From the NCBI GenBank assembly GCA_016932715.1, contig JAFGCG010000082.1:1-33277 (forward strand): a stretch of 33,277 nt of DNA. The letters are read 5' to 3'. This document shows, piece after piece, positions 9,561 through 33,277 of the stretch. Under the pieces are notes generated by a model that was given only the letters and a program-made list of their open reading frames with translations, ran no database searches and was not told the DNA's origin. Origin of the DNA: Anaerolineales bacterium. GTDB taxonomy: Bacteria; Chloroflexota; Anaerolineae; Anaerolineales; Villigracilaceae. A program made the position numbers and the translations under genes. Each line of letters begins with the position of its first letter. The first letter of the stretch is position 1.

Positions 9561-9566
9561 TCCAGT

Positions 9567-9607
9567 AAAAACAGCCATGTTCCGCGAAGCGGGGCATGGC
9601 TGTTTTT
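9567..9607 (+). terminator. Intrinsic terminator after the binding-protein gene
   Basis: A perfect 13-bp stem, AAAAACAGCCATG (9567-9579) with CATGGCTGTTTTT (9595-9607), carries a second CCGC/GCGG stem in the loop (9582-9592). It ends in a run of five T. It begins seven bases after the stop codon. The A-run on the other arm would also make it work on the opposite strand. It probably causes partial termination between the binding protein and the permeases. Confidence 0.85.
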
Positions 9608-9617
9608 GTAATAGGCA

Positions 9618-9699
9618 GGTGACAGTCACTTTGCGTCCAGGACGGCAAATCTCTGAAGCCGCAGACCTAACTCTGGTCTGACCAAGTGACTGTCACTTT
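9618..9699. repeat. REP/MITE-like palindromic element
   Basis: GTGACAGTCACTT (9619-9631) and AAGTGACTGTCAC (9684-9696) are exact 13-bp inverted repeats, and each end is also palindromic in itself (GTGAC-N-GTCAC). Between them lie two more hairpins, CGTCC-A-GGACG (9634-9644) and CAGACC/GGTCTG (about 9662-9680). The architecture resembles REP elements mobilised by IS200-like RAYT transposases. That link is inference; no such transposase gene is in the window. Confidence 0.6.
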
Positions 9700-9704
9700 A
9701 TCGG

Positions 9705-9710
9705 TATAAT
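9705..9710 (+). promoter_or_regulatory. Possible -10 box for the permease genes
   Basis: A consensus TATAAT lies 26 bp upstream of the likely permease start, after the terminator and repeat element. I see no convincing -35 box at 16-18 bp, so the promoter is tentative. Confidence 0.35.
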
Positions 9711-9735
9711 GCCTGTTGTATTTACGTGGAGGTGT

Positions 9736-10743: not shown

Positions 10744-10757
10744 GCAGAGATGCTGCT

Positions 10758-12008: not shown

Positions 12009-12017
12009 GAGATCGAC

Positions 12018-13043: not shown

Positions 13044-13845
13044 AAAAGAATTGTACCTGAGCGCCTCAGGGCTTACCAAGGTATTTGGGTTTGGCCGCCA
13101 GAAAACTGTCGCTGTCGATCACGTGGATCTCAATCTCTACGAAGGCGAAGTCATCTCGATCGTGGGCGAATCGGGCAGCGGAAAGACTACATTGGCGAAG
13201 ATGCTTTTGGGACTGATCAGCACTACTGAGGGCGATATTTACTTCCAGGGGAAAAAACGCGACATCAGTACTCACAGGAAGAAAAAGGAATACTGGAAAA
13301 ATATTCAGGCGATCTTTCAGGACCCGTTCTCTTCATACAACATATTCAACAAGATCGATACCGTGCTTTTGGATTGTATTCATATGCGCGGCGGTCGAAA
13401 GTTTCCGTATGCGAAAAAAGTGGAGTTGATGACAGAGGCATGCAGCTTTGTCAACTTGAAGTTCGAGGAGTTGACCAACAAGTATCCTTTTGAACTTTCC
13501 GGCGGACAGATGCAGCGCTTGATGATCGCCCGCATCTTCCTGCTGAAACCGAAGATCCTGCTGGCTGATGAACCTACCTCGATGATCGATGCCTGTTCAC
13601 GCGCGACCATCCTGGATATGCTGATGCAATTACGCAAGGAAATTGGGATGACGATCATTTTCATCACCCATGATATTGGGCTGGCGTACTATGTTTCTGA
13701 CAGCGTCTATATTATGGAGCATGGAAAATTCGTGGAAAGCGGATCTGCCGACGATGTGATTCTGCGTCCGAAAGAGCCGTACACCAAGCGCCTGCTCAAT
13801 GACGTTCCGAAGATCTACGAAGAATGGGATCTCTCAACGGTGTAA
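13033..13845 (+). CDS. ABC transporter ATPase, OppF/DppF family
   Basis: About 270 residues with Walker [10 protein letters not shown] (about 45-53), Q-loop [11 protein letters not shown], signature LSGGQMQRL, Walker [10 protein letters not shown] and switch His in FITHDIG. The frame extends to ATG 13012, but AAGGAGG at 13017-13023 lies inside that extension, nine bases before ATG 13033, so 13033 is the better start. It is shorter than typical OppF because the C-terminal oligopeptide extension is almost absent. It should form the heterodimeric ATPase of the importer with the preceding gene. Confidence 0.95.
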
Positions 13846-13911: not shown

Positions 13912-15210
13912 ATGTTGAAAGTAGCCGTCATCGGCGGCGGCTCGACGTACACTCCAGAATTGGTCAACGGTTTTCTCGCGCGGACAGAACAATTCCCACT
14001 CGATGAACTTTGGCTGATGGATATTGACGCCGGGCGGCTCGAGATCGTCGGCGGGTTTGCTCAACGCATGGTGGAGGCGAAAGGCGCACCTTTCAAAGTC
14101 ATTCTCTCCACAAATCAGCGTGAATCCATCCAGGAGGCGGACTATGTGACCACGCAATTGCGCGTTGGTCATATGGAAGCCCGCCGCCGCGATGAATACC
14201 TCGGGCTGAGGCACGGCCTGATCGGACAGGAGACGACGGGGGTGGGCGGCATGGGCAAGGCGCTCCGCACCATCCCCGTGATCCTGCAGATCGCCCGCGA
14301 TATCCGGGAAGCTGCCAGGCCCGGGACCCTGCTGGTGAACTTCACAAACCCGGCCGGTCTCGTCACACAGGCGTTGAGCAAGTACGCACCGGATGTCCCC
14401 GCGGTTGGCGTATGCAACGTGTCGATTACGACAAAAATGCACATCCTCGAAAGCCTCGAACAGGCGACCGGCAGGAAGATCGACCCAAGCCAGACGGAGT
14501 TGAAGACTCTCGGCTTGAATCACCTGTCGTGGCACCGCGGTTTTACGATCGATGGAGAAGATGTCTGGCCCCAGGTCATGGCGGGCTTCCTCGCGGGCCT
14601 CAGGAAAGAAGCAGAGCCGGAATGGGATCCGCGCACCATCGAAGTCCTGCAGATGATCCCAAACTATTATCTCCAATACTTCTATCACACCGATAGGAAG
14701 TTAAAAGCACAGGAGCAGTGGCCGCCCTCGCGTGCAGACGAAGTGATGGAAGTAGAGCAAGACTTGCTGCGTGAATATGCCAACCCCAACTTGAAGGAGC
14801 CGCCTGCCGACCTGATGAAACGCGGCGGTGCATACTACTCGACCGTTGCGACACAGTTGCTAAACGCTCATTACAATGATCTGGGCGAGACTCATGTGGT
14901 AAATATCAGGAATAACGGCGCGGTCAAAGAATGGCCCGCCGAGTGGGTGCTGGAAATCCCATCCCTCGTGAAAAGGAACGGGATCACTCCCATCCCTGCC
15001 GAGCCCCTGCCCGCCTCCTGCTTTGGATTGATCGCGGCTGTGAAGGCATATGAACTGCTGACCGTGGAAGCCGCGGTGCATGGCGACCGCGCGGCTGCCT
15101 ACCAGGCTTTACTGGTACATCCGCTGGGACCAAAAGCGGACAAGGTGCAGGCTGTGCTCGACGACCTGTTGGAAACCCATAAAGAACACCTGCCCCAGTT
15201 CTGGAACTAA
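13912..15210 (+). CDS. Glycoside hydrolase family 4 (6-phospho-beta-glucosidase-like)
   Basis: 432 residues. An N-terminal Rossmann fold (VAVIGGGSTYTPELVNGF) binds NAD. TTQLRVGHMEAR and GQETTGVGG are family signature stretches. The predicted metal ligands are Cys168 (GVCNV) and His204 (GLNHLSW). GH4 enzymes hydrolyse glycosides by an NAD- and Mn-dependent redox-elimination mechanism in the cytoplasm. Closest in motif style are 6-phospho-beta-glucosidases, which normally act on PTS products. No PTS component is visible here and the importer is ABC type, so the true substrate may be unphosphorylated or phosphorylated by a kinase encoded elsewhere. The Shine-Dalgarno is weak. Confidence 0.93.
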   Translation: MLKVAVIGGGSTYTPELVNGFLARTEQFPLDELWLMDIDAGRLEIVGGFAQRMVEAKGAPFKVILSTNQRESIQEADYVTTQLRVGHMEARRRDEYLGLRHGLIGQETTGVGGMGKALRTIPVILQIARDIREAARPGTLLVNFTNPAGLVTQALSKYAPDVPAVGVCNVSITTKMHILESLEQATGRKIDPSQTELKTLGLNHLSWHRGFTIDGEDVWPQVMAGFLAGLRKEAEPEWDPRTIEVLQMIPNYYLQYFYHTDRKLKAQEQWPPSRADEVMEVEQDLLREYANPNLKEPPADLMKRGGAYYSTVATQLLNAHYNDLGETHVVNIRNNGAVKEWPAEWVLEIPSLVKRNGITPIPAEPLPASCFGLIAAVKAYELLTVEAAVHGDRAAAYQALLVHPLGPKADKVQAVLDDLLETHKEHLPQFWN

Positions 15211-16720: not shown

Positions 16721-17692
16721 ATGACCTACGATGCTCTTCCCAACATCCCCTGGCAGGACCGGCCCGCCGCCTGCTCTGATGTTATCTGGCGCTATGATGC
16801 CAACCCCATCATCCCCCGGGATCTGATCCCCTCCTCGAACAGTATCTTCAACAGCGCGGTGGTTCCCTTCAACGGCAAGTTTGCCGGTGTCTTTCGCTGC
16901 GACAATAAAAAGCGTGAGATGAACCTCCATCGCGGTTTCAGCGAGAATGGCATCCACTGGAAACTGGATAACGACCCCATCCGATGGGAATGCAGCGACC
17001 CCGATATCGGCTGGTTTCAATATCGTTACGACCCGCGCGTGGTCTGGCTCGAAGATCGTTACTATGTGACCTGGTGCAACGGCTATCATGGCCCCACGAT
17101 CGGGATCGGTTACACCTTTGACTTCGAAAAGTTTATCTTCCTGGAGAACGCACTATTACCGTTCAATCGGAACGGCGTGCTTTTCCCGCGCAGGATCAAG
17201 GACAAGTACGTGATGTTCAGCCGCCCCAGCGATAACGGCCACACACCCTTCGGTGACATTTACCTGAGTCAAAGCCTGGATCTGATCCACTGGGGTGAGC
17301 ATCGTTTCGTGATGGGGACCAAAGGGGGCTGGCAAAGCACAAAGGTCGGAGCCGGGCCCGTGCCCATCGAAACCCCGGAAGGCTGGCTGCTGTTCTATCA
17401 CGGCGTTCTCACTTCCTGCAACGGATTTGTCTACAGCTTTGGCGCCGCCCTGCTCGACCTGGATAAACCCTGGAAAGTGATCGCGCGTGGAGGTCCCTAC
17501 CTCCTTTCCCCCCAAACCTATTATGAATGTGTGGGGGATGTGCCCAACGTGGCGTTCCCCTGCGCCACTCTGTACGATCAGCCAACCGGCCGGATCGCCA
17601 TCTACTACGGCGGCGCCGACACGGTCACAGCCCTGGCATTTGCCAAACTGGATGAAGTCCTCGATTTTGTAAAATCAACCTCGGAGCTCTAG
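16721..17692 (+). CDS. Glycoside hydrolase family 130, beta-mannoside phosphorylase
   Basis: 323 residues, the usual GH130 length, forming a five-bladed beta-propeller. The conserved YDPRV with general acid Asp104, [11 protein letters not shown], and [20 protein letters not shown] are characteristic of GH130. These cytoplasmic enzymes phosphorolyse beta-1,4-mannosides, such as mannooligosaccharides, mannosyl-glucose or mannosyl-N-acetylglucosamine, to alpha-mannose 1-phosphate. The subfamily and exact acceptor cannot be fixed from motifs alone. No signal peptide is present. The stop codon is one base from the start of the following GH5-like gene. Confidence 0.93.
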
Positions 17693-17693
17693 A

Positions 17694-18977
17694 ATGTCTG
17701 AACCTTTTATGTTAGGTGTGAATTATTGGCCGCGCCGGAAAGCCATGTACTGGTGGAACGATTTCGACGCGGGTGAGGTACGCGAGGAATTTAGTGTTAT
17801 TCGTGAACTGGGATTAAAGGTCGTCCGCCTGTTCCTGCTCTGGGAAGACTTCCAGCCCGATCCGGATTCTGTTTCGAAGGAAGCCCTGGATCGTTTGATC
17901 ACCGTGGCAGATATTGCCGCGGAAAAGGGTCTCGGGCTCGACGTGACCTTCTTCACCGGTCACATGAGCGGACCGAACTGGAGTCCGCGCTGGCTGCTCG
18001 GGGGCACGGACCATCCCTATAAAGATCCATGGATGGGATTACTTCGAGATATTGTCAGCGAGGGTAAGGTGACGGAACTGGGCTACCGCAACATGTTCCA
18101 CGATGAGACGGCACTACGTGCCGCGCGCTTGCTCCTGAAAACCGTCGTAAGCACGCTCAGGGATCATCCCGGCATCTGGATGTGGAATCTCGGCAACGAA
18201 CCCGACCTGTTTGCCTGGCCCAATACATCAGATGAAGGTGCAGCCTGGGTCAGGGAAATGGTTGGACTGATCAAAGAGATCGATCCGAACCATCCTGTCA
18301 CGATCGGGCTGCACAGCGCCGAGCTGCATGCCGATACCGGTCTGCGGATCGACAAAGTCTACAAGCACACGGACAGCGCGGTGATGCATTCCTATCCCAT
18401 GTACATACCCTGGGCGCGCAGACCGCTCGACCCTGACTTTGTCCCCTTCACCTGTGCAATCACCGCCGCCTTAGCCGGCAAGCCCATCCTGATGGAGGAA
18501 TTCGGCGGCTGCACCGCCCAGCCTGGCGAACCATCCCACGTCATGAAATGGACGGAGTCCAATGGCCGTCCGCGCGAACAGTTCATGGCATCGGAGGAAG
18601 ACTTTGCCGAGTTCATTCGCCAGACGCTGACAAAACTTCAGGATAGCGGCGCGACCGGGGCAATGCTCTGGTGTTACGCCGACTACATCCCGGAGCTTTG
18701 GAACCTGCCGCCCTGCGACAACCACCAGCACGAACGTTTCTTCGGGCTGGTGAGACCCGATGGCTCGCTCAAGCCTCATGCAAAAGTGATCCAAGAATTT
18801 GCGGCGACCAAGCCCCAGGTCCAACCGATCCCCGATTATGCAAAGTTCGAGTTTAACCCGGAAGAGTTCTACAAGGGTCCCATCCCTTTCCTGCTCGACT
18901 TTTACGCTCAGTATTTGAAGGGAGCCGATGTCTCAGATCCCGGGCCCAGGCTCTCGGAATTCAAAGATACATCTTAA
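17694..18977 (+). CDS. Clan GH-A glycoside hydrolase, GH5-like (mannanase/beta-mannosidase type)
   Basis: 427 residues, a TIM-barrel hydrolase. It starts with FMLGVNYWPRRKAMYWW. The predicted acid/base is Glu169 in WNLGNEPD and the nucleophile is Glu269 in PILMEEFGG. The two carboxylates are spaced as expected for the retaining clan GH-A mechanism. No signal peptide is present, so it should act on imported oligosaccharides. The family is GH5 or a close clan-A relative. Mannoside cleavage is inferred from the adjacent, nearly overlapping GH130 gene, not from a diagnostic motif. Confidence 0.85.
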   Translation: MSEPFMLGVNYWPRRKAMYWWNDFDAGEVREEFSVIRELGLKVVRLFLLWEDFQPDPDSVSKEALDRLITVADIAAEKGLGLDVTFFTGHMSGPNWSPRWLLGGTDHPYKDPWMGLLRDIVSEGKVTELGYRNMFHDETALRAARLLLKTVVSTLRDHPGIWMWNLGNEPDLFAWPNTSDEGAAWVREMVGLIKEIDPNHPVTIGLHSAELHADTGLRIDKVYKHTDSAVMHSYPMYIPWARRPLDPDFVPFTCAITAALAGKPILMEEFGGCTAQPGEPSHVMKWTESNGRPREQFMASEEDFAEFIRQTLTKLQDSGATGAMLWCYADYIPELWNLPPCDNHQHERFFGLVRPDGSLKPHAKVIQEFAATKPQVQPIPDYAKFEFNPEEFYKGPIPFLLDFYAQYLKGADVSDPGPRLSEFKDTS

Positions 18978-18985
18978 CCCTCTTC

Positions 18986-19013
18986 TTTCCTCTTTCTTCT
19001 TTCCTCTTTCTTC
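18986..19013 (+). repeat. Tandem CT-rich 14-mer, two copies
   Basis: TTTCCTCTTTCTTC occurs twice in direct tandem (18986-18999 and 19000-19013) within a pyrimidine-rich gap between the GH5-like and GH3 genes. It is probably a simple replication-slippage repeat. Confidence 0.8.
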
Positions 19014-19041
19014 TCACCTCTTTCATCCTTTGGGAGAAACC

Positions 19042-21684
19042 ATGTCTCATCTTGACGACCTTCTCAGACAAATGACACTCGAAGAAAAAATTTCGATGCT
19101 TGCCGGCGCGGATCTGTGGCACAGTGTCCCAGTGCCGCGGCTGGGCATCTCACAGTTCAAAGTGACCGATGGACCCAACGGGGCGCGCGGCGCCTGGGGC
19201 AGCATGGGACCCACCTCCGTCGCCACACCGGTGGGGATCGCGCTGGGCGCCACCTGGAACCCTACCCTCGTGGAAAAAGTTGGCAATGTGCTCGCGGATG
19301 AGATCAAAGCCAAAGGCGCGCATATCCTGCTCGCGCCCACGGTCAACATCCACCGCACGCCCATCGCGGGACGGAACTTCGAATGCTATTCCGAGGACCC
19401 ATTTCTCAGCGGAGTGCTGGCAGCAGCCTACATCAAGGGGATTCAGAGTAAGGGCGTCGGCGCGTGCATCAAACACTTCGTGACGAACGATCAGGAATAT
19501 GAACGTCACTCGATGAGTTCCGAAGTGGATGAACGCACCCTGCGTGAAATCTACCTGGAACCGTTCCGCATCGCGATCCGCAGCGCAAACCCCTGGTCTG
19601 TGATGTCTGCTTACAACCGCGTCAATGGGACGTATGCCTGCCAAAACGACCACACACTGCTCGAGATCCTCAAAGGCGAGTGGAATTATGAGGGCTTCGT
19701 CATGTCCGACTGGTTCGGCACCTACGACCCGGGAGCTCCCTCGGGCGGACTCGATCTGGAGATGCCGGGTCCCGCGCGCTGGATGAGCGAGGAACACGTC
19801 AGGAACGCGCTTGCCAGTGGAAAGCTGACGGAAGCCGCGCTCGATGATAAAGTCCTCCGCTTGCTGCGCGTGCTGGAAAAAGCCGGATTGTTCGAGAATC
19901 CAACGCTCCAGCCTGAACGGGCTGAGAACAAGCCTCAGCATCGCAGGATCATCCGCGCGGCGGCGCGTGAGGCGATCGTGCTGCTCAAGAACGACGGGAC
20001 CCTGCCCCTCAGGAAGGTCAAGTCCATCGCGGTGATCGGACCCTATGCCGCGACCGCACAGATCCTCGGCGGCGGCAGTTCCAATGTCACACCGCACTAT
20101 GCGGTCTCGCCTTACGAAGGAATCAGGAATCGTGCGGGCAGCAGGATCAAAGTGGAGACCGCGCCCGGATGCTTCATCTACAAGAATATCCCTGCGCCGG
20201 CCCCCGAAACGTTGTCCACGCCCGACAGGCGCCGCCCCGGACTCACCCTCAGCCTGTTCAACGGGACCGAGCTTGCCGGCGAACCTGCTCATACCGAGAA
20301 TACAACGCGCGTCCAATATGGCTGGTTCGAAAATACGGTGCCAGGCGTGGATCAGGAAGCCTTCTCCCTGCGCCTGGAGGGATTCTTCACCCCGCAGGAA
20401 AGCGGCACGCACACACTCGCTCTCTCCGCCGTCGGATGGGCAAAGCTCTATCTCGATGACAACCTTGTCATCGATCATACCTCTGACTCCGATATGGCAA
20501 AGCAGCTCACTGCCGAGCTCAAACTTGAAGGCGGCAAAGCCTATCCACTCAAAATCGAATATTACTGGAAAGGCAGTCCGCGCTGGCGTTCCCTCTCGTT
20601 TGGGCATCAGCCGCCGCGCGCCAAAGACACAATCGCTGAAGCCGTCAAACTGGCGAAGAGCTCCGACGTCGTTGTGCTGATCGCCAGCTTGAACGGCGAA
20701 TGGGAAGCCGAAGGCTCCGATCGCCTCGACATGAAGCTGCCCGGCGCGCAAAATGAACTGATCGAACGCGTGGCGAAAGCCAACAGGAACACCATCGTCG
20801 TTCTGAACGCTGGTTCTCCCGTGGAAATGCCCTGGATCGACAAAGTCCCGGCTGTGCTGCAGCTCTGGTACGACAGCCAGGAACAGGGCAACGCTCTCGC
20901 CGACATTTTGTTTGGCGATGTGAATCCATCGGGCAAGCTGCCGACCACCTTCCCCATCCGCCTGCAGGATAACCCGGCCTATACCAATTACCCGGGCGAG
21001 AATGGCAAAGTCCGCTATGGGGAGGGCATCTTCGTTGGCTATCGCTATTACGACAAAAAGGAAATCGCACCGCTCTTCCCGTTCGGTCACGGGCTCTCCT
21101 ACACAACCTTCAAATACAGCAACCTGCGCCTCAGCGCAAAGTCGATCACTACGAACGAATTGCTGAAAGTCAGAGTGGACGTCACCAACACAGGCAAACT
21201 CGCGGGCAAGGAAGTGGTCCAGCTTTACGTGAGCGATCTCAATGCCACGATCGCACGGCCCGAGAAGGAACTCAAAGCCTTTGCGAAGGTGGAACTGGCT
21301 CCCAAACAAACCAGGACCGTGTCGTTTACGCTGGACCGCGAAGCCTTCTGGTATTTCGATGTCCACAAGAACGAGTGGGCGACCAAACCGGGCGATTTCG
21401 AGATCCTGATCGGTTCGTCGAGCCGCGACATTCGTCTGCGTGAACGTCTCTCGCTCCTGCCTCCGCCGCGCGCTTCTCGTCTGCATACCGGTCTCACCCT
21501 CGGGAGATTGCTCGATGACCCCGACGGCCGTGCGATCCTCTCCAGGCACCTCGGCGGTTTCCTGCACATCGACGACATGACTATGGCAACAGAAATGACG
21601 CTCGAACAGATCGCAGCCAACCATCCGACCTTCGTCTCGGCTGATTTGCTCAAAGCAATCAACGAAGAGCTGGGGAAAGTTTGA
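19042..21684 (+). CDS. Glycoside hydrolase family 3 beta-glucosidase with PA14 insert
   Basis: About 880 residues. The N-terminal TIM barrel contains TDGPNGARG and the nucleophile Asp223 in VMSDWFGT. The second alpha/beta domain is interrupted at about residues 398-530 by a PA14 domain (LTLSLFNGTELAGEP ... LYLDDNLVIDH), as in KmBglI-type enzymes where it shapes the substrate pocket. A FnIII-like domain (FPFGHGLSYTTF) and a roughly 80-residue C-terminal extension follow. The frame is open to 18928, but that extension translates the CT-rich repeat. GGGAG at 19032-19036 gives correct spacing to ATG 19042. No signal peptide is present, so it is probably cytoplasmic. The last base of its stop codon is the first base of the next start codon. 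Confidence 0.94.
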   Translation: MSHLDDLLRQMTLEEKISMLAGADLWHSVPVPRLGISQFKVTDGPNGARGAWGSMGPTSVATPVGIALGATWNPTLVEKVGNVLADEIKAKGAHILLAPTVNIHRTPIAGRNFECYSEDPFLSGVLAAAYIKGIQSKGVGACIKHFVTNDQEYERHSMSSEVDERTLREIYLEPFRIAIRSANPWSVMSAYNRVNGTYACQNDHTLLEILKGEWNYEGFVMSDWFGTYDPGAPSGGLDLEMPGPARWMSEEHVRNALASGKLTEAALDDKVLRLLRVLEKAGLFENPTLQPERAENKPQHRRIIRAAAREAIVLLKNDGTLPLRKVKSIAVIGPYAATAQILGGGSSNVTPHYAVSPYEGIRNRAGSRIKVETAPGCFIYKNIPAPAPETLSTPDRRRPGLTLSLFNGTELAGEPAHTENTTRVQYGWFENTVPGVDQEAFSLRLEGFFTPQESGTHTLALSAVGWAKLYLDDNLVIDHTSDSDMAKQLTAELKLEGGKAYPLKIEYYWKGSPRWRSLSFGHQPPRAKDTIAEAVKLAKSSDVVVLIASLNGEWEAEGSDRLDMKLPGAQNELIERVAKANRNTIVVLNAGSPVEMPWIDKVPAVLQLWYDSQEQGNALADILFGDVNPSGKLPTTFPIRLQDNPAYTNYPGENGKVRYGEGIFVGYRYYDKKEIAPLFPFGHGLSYTTFKYSNLRLSAKSITTNELLKVRVDVTNTGKLAGKEVVQLYVSDLNATIARPEKELKAFAKVELAPKQTRTVSFTLDREAFWYFDVHKNEWATKPGDFEILIGSSSRDIRLRERLSLLPPPRASRLHTGLTLGRLLDDPDGRAILSRHLGGFLHIDDMTMATEMTLEQIAANHPTFVSADLLKAINEELGKV

Positions 21685-22910
21685 TGACCAAAACTACCCT
21701 GTATCGAACCATTCTCCTCTGGCTTGCCTGGGAGGTCATCATCCTGGGCTTCCAGTGGATCGTGACAAACCGCCTGAGGATCGAACATCCCGATCTCGCT
21801 GTTCCCTGGAGCCAATACGCGACCCTGCCCTCCAGCAATAGTGATCAGATCTATTTGCTCGAGCCATTTATGAATCGACAGGTGTCCTGGGACTCGGAGT
21901 ACTATGTCGGCATCGCCGTCGGCGGATATGACGATCCCAGGGCCAGCACGATCACCAATCCGAATACCGGGCAGGACGTGATCATCAATTATGCTTTTTT
22001 TCCCTTCTATCCTTACGTGATGCGCATATTTGCATGGCCGCTCAGGCTGTTCGGATTGAATCCCCTGGCAGCCGCCAGTCTGGCGGGCGTCATTGTGTCA
22101 GCATTGGGGACGCTCGCGGGTCTGCTCGCATTGTGGGATATGACACGTTCGTACTTTGAAGAAAATGATGCGTATCGGGCTGTCTTTTATGCCTTGATCT
22201 TCCCCACCTCTTTCTTTTTTACCATGGTTTATACCGAAGGACTGTTCATCGGGCTGGCATTTGGGGCCTTGGCGCTCTTGAAACGCGGATACTGGGCCTG
22301 GGCAGCCATTCTCGGCGTGATGGCTGCCTGGACTCGCGCGCCTGGAGCCCTTCTCACCCTGCCCATGCTTATGCTCTGGTGGATGCAGATCAGACAGCAG
22401 CAACCCCTGAAACTGACGTGGAACTCGTTGCTGCGCGGCGCTTTGGCATTACTGCCGCTGGCTGGCTGTCTTCTCTGGCGCTTTTCAGACCTCGGTATGG
22501 GCTGGTCGGAATTACAGGGGTTCTTCTTTGGTCGCAGACTGCTTGGAGCTGGCGAGACGGCTGCAAATTGGCAAATTGTCTTGCAGTATGCCCGTTTCCT
22601 GGAGAGTGGAGACGCCCGGATCTATTTCGCCATTGAAATTGGGGCGATGCTCCTGGCGTTGATCGCCTCCATATGGCTCATCCGCCGCGACCCTGCAGTG
22701 GCATTATTTAGCATTGCCGTCATTATAGTTTCGGTTCTTAGCGCCAGTCCCCAGAGCATGGCTCGCTATATGCTCATGGCGCCTGCACTTTACATTTTCC
22801 TTGCTCAACTTGGAAGGAACAAAACGTTCGACCGCGCCTGGACAGTCTTCAGCATTTTGCTTCTTGGGATGGAAGCCAGTCTGTTTGCTGTGGATATGTG
22901 GGTCGGATAA
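21684..22910 (+). CDS. PIG-V-like mannosyltransferase, polytopic membrane protein
   Basis: About 408 residues with roughly nine to ten hydrophobic segments. An early aromatic-acidic motif WDSEYY follows the first membrane helix and a long loop, then NYAFFPFYPYVMR and PTSFFFTMVYTEGLF. These are characteristic of the PIG-V/GPI-mannosyltransferase-2-like family, GT-C fold enzymes that use lipid-linked sugar donors such as polyprenyl-phosphate-mannose. ATG 21684 shares one base with the GH3 stop codon, so it is translationally coupled to the catabolic gene. Its acceptor is unknown, and it is the only membrane glycosyltransferase in the cluster. Confidence 0.82.
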   Translation: MTKTTLYRTILLWLAWEVIILGFQWIVTNRLRIEHPDLAVPWSQYATLPSSNSDQIYLLEPFMNRQVSWDSEYYVGIAVGGYDDPRASTITNPNTGQDVIINYAFFPFYPYVMRIFAWPLRLFGLNPLAAASLAGVIVSALGTLAGLLALWDMTRSYFEENDAYRAVFYALIFPTSFFFTMVYTEGLFIGLAFGALALLKRGYWAWAAILGVMAAWTRAPGALLTLPMLMLWWMQIRQQQPLKLTWNSLLRGALALLPLAGCLLWRFSDLGMGWSELQGFFFGRRLLGAGETAANWQIVLQYARFLESGDARIYFAIEIGAMLLALIASIWLIRRDPAVALFSIAVIIVSVLSASPQSMARYMLMAPALYIFLAQLGRNKTFDRAWTVFSILLLGMEASLFAVDMWVG

Positions 22911-22947
22911 ACTAAGCAAGCAGATCTTAAATCGACAAGAGGTTAAT

Positions 22948-25455
22948 ATGCGCTACGGATATTTCGACGACCCTGCAAGAGAATACGTGATCACCCGTCC
23001 CGACACCCCATTGCCCTGGATCAATTACCTGGGCTGCGAGGAATACTTCGGGCTGATCTCGAACACAGCCGGCGGCTACTCTTTTTATAAAGACGCCCGC
23101 CTGCGCCGCCTCACGCGCTACCGCTATAACAACGCCCCGCTCGACATGGGCGGACGGTACCTCTATCTGCGCGACGACCTCAGCGGCAAGTATTGGTCGC
23201 CCTCATGGATGCCTACCCGCCTTACGCTGGATGAATACGAGTGCCGCCATGGACAGGGCTATACGATCATCACGTCCAGGCTCAATGGGATCAAATTCTC
23301 GGCGCGCTATTTTGTCCCGCTCGGGGAGAGCCTCGAGATCTGGCAGGTGACCCTGACCAACGAGAACGCCTCGGCCGCGGACCTGAGCCTGTTCTCCGCC
23401 ATCGAGTTTTGCCTGTGGGACGCGAACGACGACGCCACCAACTTCCAGCGCAATTATTCCATTGGACAGGTGGAACCCCCCACCCGCTCCCCCCAAATTG
23501 GGGGGAGCGCAGAGGGGGGGGTGATCTATCACAAGAGCGAATATCGCGAGCGCCGCGATCACTTCGCCTATTTTGCCTGCTCCGAAAAACTGGCAGGCTT
23601 CGATACCGACCGCGCAGATTTCCTGGGACCCTATCGCGGCTGGGACACACCCCTCGCCGTGGAAGAGGGCAAGTCGCGCAACTCCGAAGCACTTGGCTGG
23701 CAGCCGATGGGATCGCATCATATCAAAATCAAGTTGAAGCCCGGCGAGCAGAAGCAGGTCATTTTCATCCTGGGATACCAGGAGAATCCCAAAGACGAGA
23801 AGTTCGATCCGCCCGGTTCGCAGGTCATCAACAAACAGCGCCTCAAGCCGGTGCTCGAAAAATATTTGAAGCCGGAAAACGTGGATAAAGCCTTCGGCGC
23901 CCTGCGCGAGTACTGGACCATGCTGCTTGGCAAGATCCAGGTGACAACGCCCGACGAACACACCAATCGCATGGTCAACATTTGGAACGCCTATCAATGC
24001 ATGGTGACCTTCAACATGAGCCGCTCCGCCTCCTATTTCGAGAGCGGCATCGGACGCGGCATGGGCTTCCGCGATTCGACTCAGGATCTGCTTGGCTTTG
24101 TACACATGATCCCCGAACGCGCCCGTGAACGCATCCTGGACGTATCTGGGACGCAATTGAAGAACGGCGGTGCGTTCCATCAATACCAGCCCCTCACCAA
24201 ACGCGGCAACAACGATGTCGGCTCCGGTTTCAACGATGATCCGCTCTGGCTGGTACTGGCTGTCGCGGCTTACCTCAAGGAGAGCGGCGACTGGTCGATC
24301 CTCGATGAGCAGGTGCGGTATCAAAACGAACCTGGGACGGAAAGCCCGCTCTACGAGCATTTGCAGCGCGCCGTTCAATACACGCTCGACCGCCTGGGAC
24401 CGCACAAGCTCCCGCTCATCGGCCGCGCGGACTGGAACGACTGCCTGAACCTGAACTGCTTCTCGGATACCCCCGGTCAATCCTTCCAGACCACCACCAA
24501 CAAAGAGGGCAAAGTCGCCGAAAGCGTGTTCATCGCCGGGTTGTTCGTGCTGGCATCGCAGGAAATGGCTGGGATTGCCAGGCATTGCGGCGATCAGGCT
24601 GAAGTGGACAAAATGCAAAAATCCGCCGCCGAGATGGAAAAGACCGTCTGGGCAGCGGGCTGGGACGGAGAATGGTTCCGGCGCGCCTACGATGATTACG
24701 GTCATGTGCTGGGGTCAAAGGAAAACGTCGAAGGACGGATCTTCATCGAGCCGCAGGGCATCTCCATCATGGCGGGGCTGGGTGTCGACGCCGCGCCACG
24801 CCCTGACGGGCAGAGCGGCAGCGGCAACGCGATCAAGGCGCTCGATGCGGTGGAGAAGTATCTTGGCACCCCGCACGGGCTTGTGCTGCATAACCCTGGG
24901 TTTAGCCAGTATTATTTGCACCTGGGCGAGATTTCCTCCTACCCGGCCGGCTACAAGGAAAACGCTGGGATTTTCTGCCATAATAATCCATGGGTGATGA
25001 TCGCCGAGACCGTTGTCGGACGCGGAGACAAGGCGTTCGATTATTACACCCGCACCAATCCATCGGCGCGGGAGGCGATCAGTGAAGTGCATAAGTGTGA
25101 ACCCTATGTGTACGCCCAGATGATCGCGGGCAAGGAGGCTGTCAAACCGGGCGAAGCCAAGAACTCCTGGCTGACCGGTGCGGCTGCCTGGAATTATGTG
25201 GCGATCACACAGCATATCCTGGGTGTCCGTCCCACATTCGCTGGTCTGGAAGTGAAGCCGGTCCTCCCGTCGGGTTGGGAAGGTTTCGAAATGAGGCGCA
25301 ACTTCCAGGGAGTCTGTTACGAGATTTCCGTGAGGCGGGAAGGAGCGGGAAATAACGTCGCGCTCGAGGTGGACGGCAAATCCATCCAGGGCACACTCAT
25401 TCCGCTGCCCGACGCAAACAAAAAAACTGTAAAGGTCAAGGCTGTCGTTCGATAA
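22948..25455 (+). CDS. GH94 phosphorylase, cellobiose-phosphorylase-like
   Basis: About 835 residues. It opens with the GH94 N-terminal signature MRYGYFDDPAREYVITRPDT. The beta-sandwich domain and helical linker are followed by an (alpha/alpha)6 barrel with GMGFRDSTQDLLG and catalytic acid Asp498 in ADWNDCLN. YPAGYKENAGIFCHNNPW and NSWLTGAAAWN complete the barrel. It should convert cellobiose and phosphate to alpha-glucose 1-phosphate and glucose in the cytoplasm. The frame extends to 22801 within the previous gene, but GAGG at 22939-22942 sets the start at 22948. A palindromic insert encodes an extra PPTRSPQIGGSAEGG-type loop in the N-terminal domain. Confidence 0.93.
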   Translation: MRYGYFDDPAREYVITRPDTPLPWINYLGCEEYFGLISNTAGGYSFYKDARLRRLTRYRYNNAPLDMGGRYLYLRDDLSGKYWSPSWMPTRLTLDEYECRHGQGYTIITSRLNGIKFSARYFVPLGESLEIWQVTLTNENASAADLSLFSAIEFCLWDANDDATNFQRNYSIGQVEPPTRSPQIGGSAEGGVIYHKSEYRERRDHFAYFACSEKLAGFDTDRADFLGPYRGWDTPLAVEEGKSRNSEALGWQPMGSHHIKIKLKPGEQKQVIFILGYQENPKDEKFDPPGSQVINKQRLKPVLEKYLKPENVDKAFGALREYWTMLLGKIQVTTPDEHTNRMVNIWNAYQCMVTFNMSRSASYFESGIGRGMGFRDSTQDLLGFVHMIPERARERILDVSGTQLKNGGAFHQYQPLTKRGNNDVGSGFNDDPLWLVLAVAAYLKESGDWSILDEQVRYQNEPGTESPLYEHLQRAVQYTLDRLGPHKLPLIGRADWNDCLNLNCFSDTPGQSFQTTTNKEGKVAESVFIAGLFVLASQEMAGIARHCGDQAEVDKMQKSAAEMEKTVWAAGWDGEWFRRAYDDYGHVLGSKENVEGRIFIEPQGISIMAGLGVDAAPRPDGQSGSGNAIKALDAVEKYLGTPHGLVLHNPGFSQYYLHLGEISSYPAGYKENAGIFCHNNPWVMIAETVVGRGDKAFDYYTRTNPSAREAISEVHKCEPYVYAQMIAGKEAVKPGEAKNSWLTGAAAWNYVAITQHILGVRPTFAGLEVKPVLPSGWEGFEMRRNFQGVCYEISVRREGAGNNVALEVDGKSIQGTLIPLPDANKKTVKVKAVVR
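23475..23522. repeat. Perfect palindrome inserted in frame in the GH94 gene
   Basis: CGCTCCCCCCAA (23485-23496), a single A, then the exact reverse complement (23498-23509) form a 12-bp-arm palindrome. C-run and G-run flanks extend it imperfectly to 23475-23522, 48 bp or 16 codons. It is read through in frame as a Pro/Gly/Ser-rich loop. Its base composition is unlike the surrounding gene. Confidence 0.85.
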
Positions 25456-25604: not shown

Positions 25605-28013
25605 ATGAACTACGGCTACTTCGACGATCCCAACCGTGAATATGTGATCACCGATCCACGCACGCCCACCAAGTGGATCAACTATATTGGCACGCTGCAG
25701 TTCGGCGGATTCGTGGACCATACCGGCGGCGCGTTGATCTGCAAGAATGACCCGACCTTCAACCGCATCACAAAATATATCCAGCAGATGCCGTCCTCCG
25801 ATTTCAAGGGCGAGACACTATATCTTCGCATTAAGCTGGAAAACATTTACAAGGTCTTCTCCCCCTTCTTTGTGCCCACACTGGATTACTACGACAAATA
25901 TGAGTGCCGCGTGGGACTCAATTACACGCGCATTATCAGTGAATTCCATGAGATCCGCACCGAAGTGACGATCTTCGTTCCAACCCATGCCGCCGTCGAA
26001 GTGCGCGATATCAGGATCACCAACCTCAGCGGGGAGCCGCTCGAACTGGACGCGATCCCGGTGCTGGAATACACCCATCCCGACGCGCTAAAACAATTTA
26101 CCAATGCCGATTGGATCCCCCAGACGATGACCTCGCAAGCGGTGAAAAACGGCGATTACATAGTGCTGATCCAATATCCCTTCATGAACCGCGACCTCCA
26201 GGTCAATTACTTCACCTCGAACCTGGTTGCGTCATCGTTCGAGACAGATCGCAAAAAATTCCTCGGCAGGAATGAATATGGCACGTGGGCGAATCCTGAA
26301 AGCTTGCAGGAGGCGGAGCTCTCCAATACCGAAGCGTTACGAGGAGACAACATCGCGGCGCTGATGCACCATCTCGGCACGCTGCAGCCCGGCGAGACGA
26401 AACGCCTCATCACGCAGCTGGGACAGGAAACAAACCTGGAAGCAGCCGGGCAAAGTATCGAAACACACCGCGATCCAAAGTCCGTGGACGAGGCGCTCGT
26501 GGAGATGAAAAATTTCTGGGATGAATACCTCGCCACGCTGCAGGTCGAAACCCCCGACCCGGCGATGAATGCCATTCTCAACATCCACAACCCGCATCAA
26601 TGTTTCATCACGCGTCAATGGTCCCGCTATCTGTCGTATTATCAGCTCGGGCTTGGGGCACGCGGGATTGGCATCCGCGACTCGTCGCAGGACATCCTCG
26701 GCGTGATGGCGAACATTCCCGACGATGCGAAAGATTTCCTGAAGACGCTGCTCTCCTTCCAAAAGGGAAATGGCTCGGCGCTGCATAATTTCAATCCACT
26801 GACGATGGAAGGCAGCGTCGGCGACGCGATCGAACGGGAGGATCGCCCCCACTATTACAGCGACGACCATCTGTGGAGCATTCTGGGAGTCACGGCGTAC
26901 ATCAAGGAAACGGGGGATGTCCCATTTCTCGATGAGACGGTCCCGTTCTATGAAAAGGATAAGCAGGGGAACCCACTCGAGACGGCCTCCGTGCTGGATC
27001 ACGTTAAACGCGCCCTGTCCTTCACCCGGGCAGATCTCGGCGTCCATGGCCTGCCCCTGCTGGGCTTCGCAGACTGGAACGACACCATCAATCTTGCGAA
27101 AGGTGCGGAGTCGCTTTTTTCCGCGCATTTGTATGGGCGCGCCTTGAATGAATTCATTAGCCTGCTGGATTTCCTTGGCAGGAAGGAAGAAGCCGATGAA
27201 TGGCGCAAGGCGCATGCCGAGATGAAGAGGCGCGTCGAGGAGCATGCCTGGGATGGCGAGTGGTATGTGATGTACTTCGACCACGATGGTACACCGGTTG
27301 GCTCGCATAAAAATCAATATGGCAGGATCCATCTCAACGGACAGTCCTGGGCGGTGCTCTCAGGCTTTGCTTCCCAGGAACGCGCCCGCCAGGCAATGGA
27401 TTCCGTCTATAAGCATCTCAACACGAAATATGGCATCAAACTTTCGACACCGGGCTACAATGGCTTTGACCCGCGCTATGGCGGCATCACGACCTATCCT
27501 CCCGGGGCGAAGGAAAACTGCGGCATCTTCCTGCACCCGAATCCCTGGGCGATGATCGCAGAGACCCTGCTGGGGGACGGCGACCGCGCCTACGAGTATT
27601 ACTCGCAGATCAACCCGGCCGGCAAGAACGACATGATCGATCTCTATGAGAGCGAGCCGTATGTCTATCCACAAAATATCCTGGGCGATGAACACCCGCA
27701 GTTCGGCCTGGCACGCAACTCCTGGCTTTCCGGCACCGCCTCGTGGATGTACCAGGCCGGTACGCAGTGGATCCTTGGCATCCGCGCCGAGTACGATGGG
27801 CTGCGCGTCGATCCGTGCATCCCGTCGAAGTGGAATGGGTTCAGAGTGACGCGCGAATATCGCGGCGCGAGCTATCTTATAACGGTGAACAACCCAAAGC
27901 ACGTCTGCAGAGGCGTGGAAAAGGTCACAGTTAACGGCGGGCAGGCCGAGGGGAGTCTGATCCGGGCACATAAAGGCGCAAGCCTGGTGCAGGTTAAGGT
28001 CACGCTGGGATGA
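25605..28013 (+). CDS. GH94 phosphorylase, divergent second paralogue
   Basis: 802 residues with the same N-terminal signature (MNYGYFDDPNREYVITDPRT), GIGIRDSSQDILG, catalytic acid Asp493 in FADWNDTINL, and YPPGAKENCGIFLHPNPW. It differs from the first GH94 at the residues after WND (TINL against CLNL) and in the substrate-loop region (HYYSDDHLW), so its substrate is likely different. Chitobiose, cellobionate, cellodextrin and laminaribiose phosphorylases are all possible in this family. The 149-bp gap upstream shows no clear promoter; AGGAG precedes the ATG. Its stop overlaps the next start (ATGA). Confidence 0.93.
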   Translation: MNYGYFDDPNREYVITDPRTPTKWINYIGTLQFGGFVDHTGGALICKNDPTFNRITKYIQQMPSSDFKGETLYLRIKLENIYKVFSPFFVPTLDYYDKYECRVGLNYTRIISEFHEIRTEVTIFVPTHAAVEVRDIRITNLSGEPLELDAIPVLEYTHPDALKQFTNADWIPQTMTSQAVKNGDYIVLIQYPFMNRDLQVNYFTSNLVASSFETDRKKFLGRNEYGTWANPESLQEAELSNTEALRGDNIAALMHHLGTLQPGETKRLITQLGQETNLEAAGQSIETHRDPKSVDEALVEMKNFWDEYLATLQVETPDPAMNAILNIHNPHQCFITRQWSRYLSYYQLGLGARGIGIRDSSQDILGVMANIPDDAKDFLKTLLSFQKGNGSALHNFNPLTMEGSVGDAIEREDRPHYYSDDHLWSILGVTAYIKETGDVPFLDETVPFYEKDKQGNPLETASVLDHVKRALSFTRADLGVHGLPLLGFADWNDTINLAKGAESLFSAHLYGRALNEFISLLDFLGRKEEADEWRKAHAEMKRRVEEHAWDGEWYVMYFDHDGTPVGSHKNQYGRIHLNGQSWAVLSGFASQERARQAMDSVYKHLNTKYGIKLSTPGYNGFDPRYGGITTYPPGAKENCGIFLHPNPWAMIAETLLGDGDRAYEYYSQINPAGKNDMIDLYESEPYVYPQNILGDEHPQFGLARNSWLSGTASWMYQAGTQWILGIRAEYDGLRVDPCIPSKWNGFRVTREYRGASYLITVNNPKHVCRGVEKVTVNGGQAEGSLIRAHKGASLVQVKVTLG

Positions 28014-28893: not shown

Positions 28894-30255
28894 ATGGCAA
28901 ACAAAATCACTTTTCCTGAAAATTTCCTGTGGGGCGCAGCAACAGCATCCTATCAGATCGAAGGCGCCTGGAACAAGCACGGCAAGGGCGAATCGACCTG
29001 GGACCGCTTTACACATACACCCGGAAAGATCAGGAATAGCGATACGGGCGACATTGCTACGGACCATTACCGCCTTTGGAAAAAAGATATCGGCTTGATG
29101 AAAAAGATCGGCCTGAAGGCTTATCGTTTTTCCATTGCGTGGCCGCGCCTCCTCCCGGCAGGACGCGGCAAGGTCAATCAGAAGGGACTGGATTTCTACA
29201 GCAGGCTGGTGGATGGTCTGCTGGCTGCAAACATCACGCCGTTTGTGACGCTCAACCACTGGGACATTCCCCAAATATTGGAGGAGGAAGGCGGCTGGAC
29301 CGTACGTTCCATGGCTGACGCATTCGTCGAATATACCGATGTGATCACGCGCAGCCTTGGCGACCGCGTGAAAAACTGGATCACACATAACGAACCGGCC
29401 GTCGTGGCATGGATGGGCTACGGGTCGGGGGTCCATGCGCCAGGGTTGAGGGACTATAAACTCGGGATACGCGCCGCGCATCACCTCCTGCTTTCACACG
29501 GACAGGCTGTGCCGGTCATTCGACGCAACAGCCCGAATGCAGAAGTGGGCATTACGCTCAATATCGCCTGGAACATAGCCGCCTCCAACAGCCGCGCCGA
29601 CCGGGAGGCGGTCCGCGCGAACGACGGCGAATGGTTCCGCTGGTTTGCCGATCCCCTCTATGGGCGCGGCTACCCGTCTGACAAGGTCACGGACTACACC
29701 CAGATGGGTGCCTTGCCAAACGGCATGGACTTTGTCCAACCCGGCGACATGGATGTGATCGCCACGCCGACAGATTTCATCGGTCTCAATTACTACTCCC
29801 GCCACGTCTTCCGCGCCGACGGCGCAGATAATGACCCACAAATTGTTTTTGCACATCCGAAGACCCCTGAACATTGGACCGAGATGGGCTGGGAAAATCA
29901 CCCCGACGGACTCATCGGGATACTGGGGCGTGTGTATTTCGATTACCAGCCGCTCAAGCTCTATGTCACCGAGAACGGGGCAAGCTATTCCACTCCACCT
30001 GATGAAAAAGGCGAAATTCATGATGAACATCGCACGAACTATTTAAGGACTCACTTCGTTGCCCTGCATCGCGCCCTCCAGGCCGGCATACCGCTGGCGG
30101 GGTACTTTCTTTGGTCACTTCTGGATAACTTCGAGTGGTCGCATGGTTATTCTCAACGCTTCGGCATCGTTTGGGTAGATTATGAAACACAAAAGCGCAT
30201 TTTGAAAGACAGCGCCAAGTGGTACAAACGCGTGATCAAAAAGAACGGGTTTTGA
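28894..30255 (+). CDS. Glycoside hydrolase family 1 beta-glucosidase
   Basis: 453 residues, typical GH1 length. The N-terminal signature is FPENFLWGAATASYQIEGAW. The acid/base is Glu167 in THNEPAVV and the nucleophile Glu360 in YVTENGAS. WSLLDNFEW with the following HGYSQRFGIV lines the -1 site. The usual Leu-Tyr-His-Trp motif reads LNHWDIP here, a minor substitution. No phosphate-binding signature of 6-phospho-beta-glycosidases is evident in the loop after WSLLDNFEW. A cytoplasmic exo-beta-glucosidase or beta-mannosidase/beta-galactosidase activity on imported oligosaccharides is expected. Confidence 0.95.
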   Translation: MANKITFPENFLWGAATASYQIEGAWNKHGKGESTWDRFTHTPGKIRNSDTGDIATDHYRLWKKDIGLMKKIGLKAYRFSIAWPRLLPAGRGKVNQKGLDFYSRLVDGLLAANITPFVTLNHWDIPQILEEEGGWTVRSMADAFVEYTDVITRSLGDRVKNWITHNEPAVVAWMGYGSGVHAPGLRDYKLGIRAAHHLLLSHGQAVPVIRRNSPNAEVGITLNIAWNIAASNSRADREAVRANDGEWFRWFADPLYGRGYPSDKVTDYTQMGALPNGMDFVQPGDMDVIATPTDFIGLNYYSRHVFRADGADNDPQIVFAHPKTPEHWTEMGWENHPDGLIGILGRVYFDYQPLKLYVTENGASYSTPPDEKGEIHDEHRTNYLRTHFVALHRALQAGIPLAGYFLWSLLDNFEWSHGYSQRFGIVWVDYETQKRILKDSAKWYKRVIKKNGF

Positions 30256-30373: not shown

Positions 30374-33277
30374 ATGAACCAGAAGTCAACTCCGATTTTC
30401 ATCGGTGATACAGTTCAACAGCGATCCGAACGAGATGTCAAAGGGGAATTCGTTGACATGCTTGGCGGGAAGTTTTATAAGATCGAAAATTATGATGGCC
30501 TGGCACCATTTTTTATGAGTATTATCAGCTGTTCGAATCACTGGCTCTTTATCTCGTCAACCGGCGGGTTATCCGCGGGGAGAGCCAGTGCCGAACAGTC
30601 TCTATTCCCCTATTACACAGACGACAAGCTGACCGAAAGCAGCGAAAATACAGGCCACAAATCCATCCTGCTGGTGACACGTGGCGAACGGACCAGCCTG
30701 TGGGAACCGTTTTCAGAACGCTACAAAGGTAACTACCGCATCGAACGAAACCTTTATAAGAATGTGGCCGGTACCGCGCTTGTTTTCGAAGAGCACAATT
30801 TCAGTCTCGGGTTATCCTACCGGTATGCCTGGCGGACCAGTGACATCTTCGGCTTTGTTAAAACGTCATGGCTGTTGAATTCTGGGGACTCTCGCTGCCA
30901 GGTTGAGTTCCTCGATGGAATTCAAAATATTCTGCCTGCTAACATCACCTCCCTGACTCAAAACACATTCAGTCCTTTGTTGGACGCCTACAAACGCAGC
31001 GAAGTGGACCTTGAGACGGGTCTCGCTATCTTTGCGTTAAACTCAACCCTGACCGATCTGGCTGAGCCCAGCGAATCGCTGCTGGCGACCACGGTCATGC
31101 AACTGGGACTCGATCAGGCTGACTATTTGCTCTCCTCAGCACAACTTGACGCTTTTCGAGCCGGGCTGGGCATAAAAATGGAAACGGAAGTGCGCGGTCG
31201 GCGTTGTGCCTACTTTGTGCACAGCACCCTGGACCTGGCTCCCGGGGCAGAACGGTCCTGGCATCTTACGGCAGATGTGTGTCAGGATAGCATTGCGATC
31301 GTCAATCTGTCGAAAAAACTGCGCACGAACAAAGCAGGGTTGGCAGAGGCTCTTGAGCGCGACATCACATTGAACAACTTGAATCTGGAAAAGTATGTTG
31401 CAGCTGCGGATGGCTTGCAGATATCCAGGGATCAACTCTGTTCCGGCCACCATTTTGCAAATGTGATGTTCAACCTCATGCGCGGAGGCATTTTTGCCGA
31501 CGGATACAAGTTCCAGGCGCAGGACTTCATAGAGTTCGTCTCTGTGCGCAATCCAGCTGTTCTCGCGGAAAATGAGGCGTTCTTTTCCGGTCTGCCTGCG
31601 GAAGGGACGATGCCCGATCTGCATGCCCGGGCGGAGGCGAGCGGTCGGGAGGACTTGATCCGCTTGAGTTATGCCTATCTGCCCCTGTCGTTCAGCCGGC
31701 GGCACGGCGATCCCAGCCGACCCTGGAATCGTTTTGTCATCGATCTCAAAAAACAGGACGGATCTCTGAAAGTAGGATATGAAGGAAATTGGCGCGATAT
31801 TTTCCAGAACTGGGAAGCACTTGCCTATTCCTACCCGGAATATATCGAAGGCATGATCTGCACCTTCCTGAATGCTACAACCCTGGATGGATACAACCCC
31901 TATCGAATTACACATCAGGGAATCGATTGGGAGGTTCCCGAGCCTCATAACCCCTGGGCGAACATTGGCTACTGGAGCGACCATCAAATCATTTATCTCC
32001 AAAAACTGATGGAGATCAGTATGAAGGTCCATCCCGGCAAGCTTCAGTCATTCCTTACCCAAACGATTTTCAGTTCCGCCAATGTTCCCTACCGGATCAA
32101 ACCTTACAGCGATTTGCAGGAGAATCCTTACAACACGATCGACTTCAACTGGGAACTACATCGGGAGATCGAGGCGCGTGTCCAGGGACATGGCACAGAC
32201 GGCAGGCTGGTCCAGAACCCGAGCGGAGGAGTCCTGCACGTCACACTGGCAGAAAAGTTACTCACCCTGCTGCTTGCCAAGCTGGTAAATTTCGTCCCCG
32301 AGGGCGGCATCTGGATGAATACCCAGCGCCCGGAGTGGAACGATGCCAACAATGCGCTCGTTGGCAAGGGACTGTCGGTGGTGACGCTTTGCTATTTGCG
32401 GCGGACGATTGTCTTCTGCAAGGAATTGCTGCAGCAGAGCCGACTCGGCTCCGTTCAGGCTTGCGTGGAGCTTCAGAATCTCTACTCGCAGATATTTCAG
32501 ATCCTGCACGAATTTCAGGATGCACTCAAGAGCACGTTTAGCGATGAACAAAGACGTGCCATGATGGACACTCTCGGCCAGGCCGGCAGCAACTATCGCT
32601 GGAACTATTATTCCCAGGGTCTCTCAGGGGAATACACCCAATTACCGATTCCCGATCTGGTTGCATTTCTCGACCTGGCACAGCAGTACGTTGAGCATTC
32701 ATTATCTGCCAACCGGCGCAGCGATAATCTCTATCATGCTTACAATATCCTGCATCTCGGTCATGGGATGGCATCCATCGGCCATCTATATGAAATGCTG
32801 GAAGGCCAGGTTGCCATCCTTTCCTCAGGCATGCTATCTGGGGAAGAGTCGCGCCTGCTTCTGGAAAGCCTGCGACACAGCCAGTTGTACCGTTCTGACC
32901 AACACAGTTACATTCTCTATCCGGACCGGGATCTGCGGGGTTTCCTTGAAAAGAATCGCATGACACCCGATCAAGTGAGTGGATTGAAACTGGTTTCAGA
33001 ACTTGTCAGGGCGAATGATAAGTCCCTGATCGTCAGGAGCGAGGAAGGCAACTATCACTTCAGCGGACATATTCACAACGCAAAAGATGTGCGCCGCGTG
33101 CTGGATGCATTGCAAAACAAATATGCCGAATTAGTAAAGCGCGAGCGCGGCCAAATCATGACCCTGTTCGAGAATATATTTCATCACAGTGAGTTCACCG
33201 GACGGTCAGGAACCTTTTTTGCCTATGAAGGCCTGGGGAGTATTTACTGGCACATGGTTTCCAAGCTCCTGCTTGCA
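30374..33277 (+). CDS. Very large protein of unnamed family, GH94-like WND motif, 3' end beyond window
   Basis: 968 codons without a stop, running off the right edge. The N-terminal part looks beta-rich (FISSTGGLSAG, LFPYYTDDKL, LWEPFSERYKG, FLDGIQNILP), similar in layout to the GH94 super-sandwich domain. The middle contains LSFSRRHGDPSRPWN (about residue 440), EGNWRDIFQNWEALAYSYPEY and GYNPYRIT. The second half is helical and carries TQRPEWNDANNALVGKG with Asp657, placed like the catalytic Asp of GH94 ADWND. I infer an (alpha/alpha)6-barrel glycosidase or phosphorylase. I cannot assign a characterised family or substrate. The frame is open upstream into the GH1 gene; ATG 30374 has only a weak AGGAAC site, and TTG 30353 is an alternative. 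No signal peptide is seen. Confidence 0.85.
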   Translation, partial: MNQKSTPIFIGDTVQQRSERDVKGEFVDMLGGKFYKIENYDGLAPFFMSIISCSNHWLFISSTGGLSAGRASAEQSLFPYYTDDKLTESSENTGHKSILLVTRGERTSLWEPFSERYKGNYRIERNLYKNVAGTALVFEEHNFSLGLSYRYAWRTSDIFGFVKTSWLLNSGDSRCQVEFLDGIQNILPANITSLTQNTFSPLLDAYKRSEVDLETGLAIFALNSTLTDLAEPSESLLATTVMQLGLDQADYLLSSAQLDAFRAGLGIKMETEVRGRRCAYFVHSTLDLAPGAERSWHLTADVCQDSIAIVNLSKKLRTNKAGLAEALERDITLNNLNLEKYVAAADGLQISRDQLCSGHHFANVMFNLMRGGIFADGYKFQAQDFIEFVSVRNPAVLAENEAFFSGLPAEGTMPDLHARAEASGREDLIRLSYAYLPLSFSRRHGDPSRPWNRFVIDLKKQDGSLKVGYEGNWRDIFQNWEALAYSYPEYIEGMICTFLNATTLDGYNPYRITHQGIDWEVPEPHNPWANIGYWSDHQIIYLQKLMEISMKVHPGKLQSFLTQTIFSSANVPYRIKPYSDLQENPYNTIDFNWELHREIEARVQGHGTDGRLVQNPSGGVLHVTLAEKLLTLLLAKLVNFVPEGGIWMNTQRPEWNDANNALVGKGLSVVTLCYLRRTIVFCKELLQQSRLGSVQACVELQNLYSQIFQILHEFQDALKSTFSDEQRRAMMDTLGQAGSNYRWNYYSQGLSGEYTQLPIPDLVAFLDLAQQYVEHSLSANRRSDNLYHAYNILHLGHGMASIGHLYEMLEGQVAILSSGMLSGEESRLLLESLRHSQLYRSDQHSYILYPDRDLRGFLEKNRMTPDQVSGLKLVSELVRANDKSLIVRSEEGNYHFSGHIHNAKDVRRVLDALQNKYAELVKRERGQIMTLFENIFHHSEFTGRSGTFFAYEGLGSIYWHMVSKLLLA

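Follow-up and report, generated by a model that had tools for sequence, protein, structure and literature searches.

The last gene of the window almost certainly encodes a 1,3-beta-D-glucan phosphorylase of family GH149. Its activity is predicted, and the gene is truncated only by the end of the contig. The window is the whole stretch of DNA that was analyzed (33,277 nucleotides). The main case is carried by sequence evidence and not by the structure model. GH149 is a known family whose members use phosphate to remove glucose units from beta-1,3-glucans, for example those of algae or fungi. The family was founded in 2018 (PMC5827456), and a crystal structure followed in 2019 (PMC6771811).

Family assignment

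Despite the 3' truncation, the protein scored 1343.9 bits on the NCBIfam model NF058639 ("1,3-beta-D-glucan phosphorylase, GH149 family," an equivalog), whose cut-off is 1150. The alignment placed residues 19 to 968 on model positions 2 to 950 of 1134. The best match by sequence among solved structures was Pro_7066 (PDB 6HQ6 and 6HQ8), a beta-1,3-oligoglucan phosphorylase. It had an E value of 2.8e-289 and 965.5 bits and was collinear with residues 18 to 968 of the window protein. This alignment spans residues 35 to 986 of the 6hq6 chain with gaps of 1 to 2 residues, and it includes both inserts, Dom 1 and Dom 2. The architecture expected of GH149 (an N-terminal beta-sandwich, a helical linker, and an (alpha/alpha)6 domain with Dom 1 and Dom 2) was thus found at the sequence level. 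The C-terminal jelly roll of GH149 would fall beyond the contig end; a 72% identical Anaerolineales protein, L024, reaches model position 1133 of 1134. Relatives are encoded in at least 583 of the 592 pattern-matched stretches of genome contigs that were examined. With this count and the NCBIfam score, a frame arising by chance is far out of reach.

An earlier, sequence-only reading had proposed a GH94-like layout and a likely carbohydrate phosphorylase, and this was right. It had also proposed an undescribed carbohydrate-active family. That part was wrong. The reading had itself named a significant match to a characterized family of known activity as evidence against a new family, and NF058639 and 6hq6 are such matches. 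The reading holds for the phosphorylase and the GH94-like layout and fails for the new family.

Two GH149 enzymes from the literature can be compared with the window protein. Pro_7066 is metagenomic, perhaps from a Flavobacteria species according to its description, whereas the window is from Chloroflexota and its copy lacks the 3' end. EgP1 of Euglena gracilis has the family and the expected reaction in common with the window protein, a likeness drawn from its description and not from its sequence. It is eukaryotic, with a targeting peptide predicted in PMC5827456.

Extent of the gene

The frame is free of stops over 968 codons counted from the ATG at 30374 and is open at the last base, 33277, so the earlier reading of at least 968 codons is borne out. 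A TTG at 30353 is an alternative start. The assembly comprises 195 contigs (4.94 Mb), and the window is the whole of one of them, C130; the open end of the frame therefore means that the gene was cut by the contig end. About 180 residues are expected beyond codon 968 by comparison with L024, which has 1,148 residues. The missing 3' part was not found when its own assembly was searched with the C-terminal 211 residues of L024; the sole match covered the final 29 codons of the window. The GH149 model has a single match in this genome, the window gene. The protein had been called giant, but complete relatives mostly have about 1,125 to 1,170 residues and its size is ordinary.

Active-site residues and conserved motifs

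PMC6771811 names seven residues of Pro_7066, which are W651, N652, D653 (predicted catalytic), R470, D471, H959, and E951. They were mapped along the alignment of the window protein with 6hq6, with the numbering offset set by D653. They correspond to W655, N656, D657, R474, D475, H960, and E952 (Table 1), and all seven are the same in the window protein. Asp657 had been taken, correctly, for the counterpart of the GH94 catalytic Asp.

Conservation was read from an alignment of the window protein with the best 80 loci of the at least 583 relatives (81 rows), which is biased towards close relatives. W655, N656, D657, R474, and D475 do not vary in any of the 81 rows. E952 and H960 are identical in 80 rows and gapped in the remaining one. 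Among rows with a residue at the position, 140 of the 968 window residues are invariant.

The same alignment bears on two motifs that had been said to fit no nameable family; both are conserved across GH149. SFSRRHGDPSRPWN starts at residue 439, and 12 of its 14 positions are identical in all 81 rows. FPYYTDDKL starts at residue 78. Its F, P, Y, and second D are kept in 80 rows, and the remaining row is gapped there; the first D is present in 58 rows and the terminal L is replaced by I in 63. As judged from this alignment, both are features of GH149. The motif PEWNDANNALVG starts at residue 653, includes Asp657, and is identical in every row.

Table 1. Positions of the GH149 gene, its predicted active-site residues, and neighboring genes in the window
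Feature	Position	Strand	Basis
LacI-type regulator	6548..7570	+	Pfam LacI, Peripla_BP_3
Oligopeptide-type ABC importer: SBP_bac_5 protein, two permeases, two ATPases	7674..13845	+	Pfam
GH4 enzyme	13912..15210	+	Pfam
GH130 (mannoside phosphorylase family)	16721..17692	+	Pfam
GH3 enzyme with PA14 domain	18928..21684	+	Pfam
GH94, cellobiose phosphorylase-like; homology begins about 50 codons into the frame	22801..25455	+	Pfam; 3qde, 1110 bits
Second GH94	25605..28013	+	Pfam
GH1 enzyme	28894..30255	+	Pfam Glyco_hydro_1, E 5.7e-160
Predicted GH149 1,3-beta-D-glucan phosphorylase gene, 3' end missing	30374..33277	+	NCBIfam NF058639, 6hq6
Arg474-Asp475, RD motif (Pro_7066 R470, D471); sugar 1-phosphate recognition according to PMC6771811	31793..31798	+	Alignment
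Trp655-Asn656-Asp657, WND motif, catalytic loop; Asp657 corresponds to Pro_7066 D653, predicted catalytic	32336..32344	+	Alignment
Glu952, corresponds to Pro_7066 E951 (bicine-binding, crystal donor site; PMC6771811)	33227..33229	+	Alignment
His960, corresponds to Pro_7066 H959, predicted phosphate recognition (PMC6771811)	33251..33253	+	Alignment

Predicted fold

The AlphaFold2 model was built from 28 sequences and had a mean pLDDT of 82.7 and a pTM of 0.60. Strands dominate to about residue 304 and helices from residue 306, in line with the beta-rich start and helical second half read from the sequence. The three best Foldseek matches in the PDB were all 6hq8 or 6hq6 (E value of 2.3e-94, TM score of 0.70 by query, 46% structural-alignment identity). 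The protein had been expected to be a relative of (alpha/alpha)6-barrel enzymes, and this ranking agrees. GH161 chains came next (19% identity), followed by GH94 laminaribiose phosphorylase (13%). GH116 and GH63 barrels appeared from rank 35 downward with E values of 1e-9 or weaker. Confidence was low for residues 443 to 452, 653 to 656 (the catalytic loop), and 941 to 968. The rmsd between the model and 6hq8 was 17.8, which means that the model places its domains poorly. The model supports the predicted fold and not the geometry of the active site.

Relatives and distribution

The nearest rows in the tree of the window protein and the best 80 loci were the Anaerolineales proteins L024 and L023 (74% identity). 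Both pass the GH149 cut-off, and the full-length L024 scores 1595.5 bits. These neighbors suggest that the window itself belongs to Anaerolineales (Chloroflexota). With midpoint rooting, the window falls in a set of 19 rows with a support of 100. This set contains 13 Chloroflexota, 3 Actinomycetota, and 2 Deinococcota rows and the window itself. A fourth Actinomycetota row sits among mostly Bacteroidota rows. A GH149 protein from a Candidatus Brockarchaeota bin (L039:6001-8874) was grouped with one Actinomycetota and one Bacteroidota row, also among mostly Bacteroidota rows. Its placement reflects either transfer or a binning error.

The distribution of GH149 among kin is patchy. The GH149 model matched 9 of 61 genomes, and 5 passed the cut-off. 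Of 298 genomes sampled evenly from the class, 37 matched and 14 passed; the window's own genome is counted in both samples and is one of the 14. In 3 of the 23 genomes of the class sample that matched without passing (G162, G268, and G222), the stretches are partial and score more strongly. The other 20 have weak matches within frames of about 810 to 1,150 residues. One protein of the same order from the 61-genome set, L009, scores 851 bits to 9qqk and 856 bits to 9h8v, whereas the GH149 model gives it only 102 bits; it is assigned to GH161 by these matches. A second protein of that set, L008, has a similarly weak GH149 score on NCBIfam. We infer that the other weak matches to the GH149 model are GH161 as well.

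Gene neighborhood

The gene is the last of a same-strand cluster. The order on the forward strand is LacI regulator, SBP_bac_5 protein with two permeases and two ATPases, GH4, a second binding protein, GH130, a GH5-like protein, GH3, a PIG-V-like protein, two GH94 enzymes, a 288-residue protein, GH1, and then GH149. According to PMC5827456, Type I GH149 clusters carry an importer made up of a COG0747 protein, two permeases, and two ATP-binding proteins, together with a regulator of the LacI or AraC type. The predicted importer and regulator of the window agree with this, as compared by Pfam and not by COG. PMC6484121 describes GH161-GH94 tandems and proposes a sequential role for them. The window cluster looks like an enlarged form of the known layout. 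The importer lies upstream, separated from the GH149 gene by about 16 kb that contains other GH genes, and its link to GH149 is therefore indirect.

Counterparts of 19 window genes were sought in flanks of up to 6 kb at the 80 best loci, with an E value of 1e-15 as the limit; many of these loci are cut by contig ends. Any match was found at 22 of the 80 loci. GH1 was matched in L018 and L082, GH94 in L064, and GH3 in L025 (55%). The remaining matches were weaker and were to GH3, LacI, GH4, or a kinase. The importer genes were matched at none of the 80 loci within these flanks. No common operon was found among the 22 matching loci, and a conserved neighborhood was rejected as evidence of function. 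PMC5827456 describes GH149 cluster architectures as varied.

Several neighbors have features of their own. The second GH94 protein scores 533 bits to cellobiose phosphorylase, 493 bits to chitobiose phosphorylase, and 62 bits to laminaribiose phosphorylase. The 288-residue protein (28010-28876, forward strand) overlaps the end of this gene. It matches no family above the cut-off and has a weak DUF4380 match (E value of 0.0015, 18 bits against a cut-off of 29.4). A PIG-V-like mannosyltransferase (21681-22910, forward strand; Pfam 26.7 bits against a cut-off of 22.4) lies amid the catabolic cluster.

A gene near the start of the window (2873-4516, forward strand) encodes a threonine-synthase-like PLP enzyme with a C-terminal response-regulator receiver domain. 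It lies directly 3' of a GAF/histidine kinase gene. Of 41 genomes (own, genus, family, and order), 35 gave a match across both domains with E values of about 1e-150 or better, which makes an assembly error unlikely. Three of the 35 best matches read through one stop. The fusion may provide a sensory link to amino-acid metabolism.

A shared regulator site was looked for as palindromes with 7-base arms and at most one mismatch. Short palindromes, which may be chance occurrences, precede the LacI, SBP_bac_5, first permease, second GH94, and second PLP-enzyme genes. The scan gave none upstream of the GH149, GH1, GH4, GH130, or second binding-protein gene. Perfect or near-perfect examples are CGGTTACTGTAACCG upstream of the LacI gene (6519-6533) and AGGTGACAGTCACTT (9617-9631) and AAGTGACTGTCACTT (9684-9698) upstream of the first permease gene. 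These three are possible operators.

Alternative readings

Pfam gave no match to the protein above the cut-off, and for this reason it looks like an orphan, as a member of an undescribed GH family would. Between them, NCBIfam, the solved structures, and the literature on the family account for residues 18 to 968, and the NCBIfam and PDB matches rule this reading out. Assignment to GH161 as a beta-1,3-glucan phosphorylase is refuted just as firmly by the score gap. GH161 phosphorylases (PapP, GH161A) are related in fold and act on the same linkage, and GH161 chains follow directly after GH149 in the fold ranking. The protein also matches 9qqk (GH161; E value of 5.1e-14, 54.5 bits) and 9h8v (deposited as a cellobiose phosphorylase; E value of 4e-14, 54.8 bits). 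This similarity is weak, however. The match to GH149 is about 910 bits stronger, and the GH161 protein L009 falls far below the window protein on the GH149 model (102 against 1344 bits). The GH94 laminaribiose and cellobiose phosphorylases are described as belonging to clan GH-Q and as having the catalytic Asp and general layout in common with GH149. The scores rule out GH94 too, since the window protein matches no GH94 domain in Pfam, with BAT alone reaching an insignificant E value of 0.13, whereas both neighboring GH94 proteins match strongly.

A truncated, non-functional gene would have no stop within the contig, and its 3' part would be missing from the assembly, as is the case here. It is very improbable, because the cut falls on the last base of the contig, the match is uninterrupted and free of inner stops, and every active-site residue named for Pro_7066 is preserved. 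A GH149 enzyme with shifted specificity, for example for mixed-linkage beta-1,3/1,4-gluco-oligosaccharides, is unlikely. A neighboring GH94 protein scores 1110 bits to cellobiose phosphorylase, GH130 is nearby, and the Chloroflexota, Deinococcota, and three of four Actinomycetota rows stand apart from Bacteroidota in the tree of the best 80 loci, all of which would fit such a shift. Against it, none of the donor-site or catalytic residues named for Pro_7066 has changed, and EgP1 and Pro_7066 are both active on beta-1,3-glucans with a mutual identity of only 45% (PMC5827456). The preferred reading remains a GH149 enzyme with the activity of its characterized relatives.

Proposed reaction and significance

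The most likely predicted reaction is the phosphorolysis of imported beta-1,3-gluco-oligosaccharides to alpha-Glc1P, which in a GH149 enzyme would be reversible. The oligosaccharides would be imported through the ABC importer, as suggested by homology. Inside the cell, the (alpha/alpha)6 barrel of the GH149 enzyme would take the non-reducing end of the substrate. Asp657 would act as the general acid and protonate the glycosidic oxygen. Phosphate held near Arg474/Asp475 and His960 would attack the anomeric carbon with inversion; PMC8950772 lists GH149 as an inverting phosphorylase family, with at least three GH149 enzymes in its table. The products would be alpha-glucose 1-phosphate and a chain shorter by one glucose. 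The neighboring GH1, GH3, and GH94 enzymes may act on leftover disaccharides and other linkages.

There is a small chance that the Chloroflexota, Actinomycetota, and Deinococcota branch is a functionally distinct subgroup of GH149. In this genome, GH149 would then be one of several phosphorylases of the locus (two GH94, GH130, and GH149) by which an energy-limited anaerobe keeps the bond energy of mixed beta-linked oligosaccharides in the form of sugar 1-phosphates. PMC5827456 places GH149 in Bacteroidetes, Proteobacteria, and Euglenophyta. PMC11919646 gives GH149 under Proteobacteria and Bacteroidota and GH1 under Chloroflexota; a Chloroflexota GH149 may still be reported in supplements or in CAZy. 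The window gene adds a Chloroflexota example to GH149 and corrects the claim of a new family.
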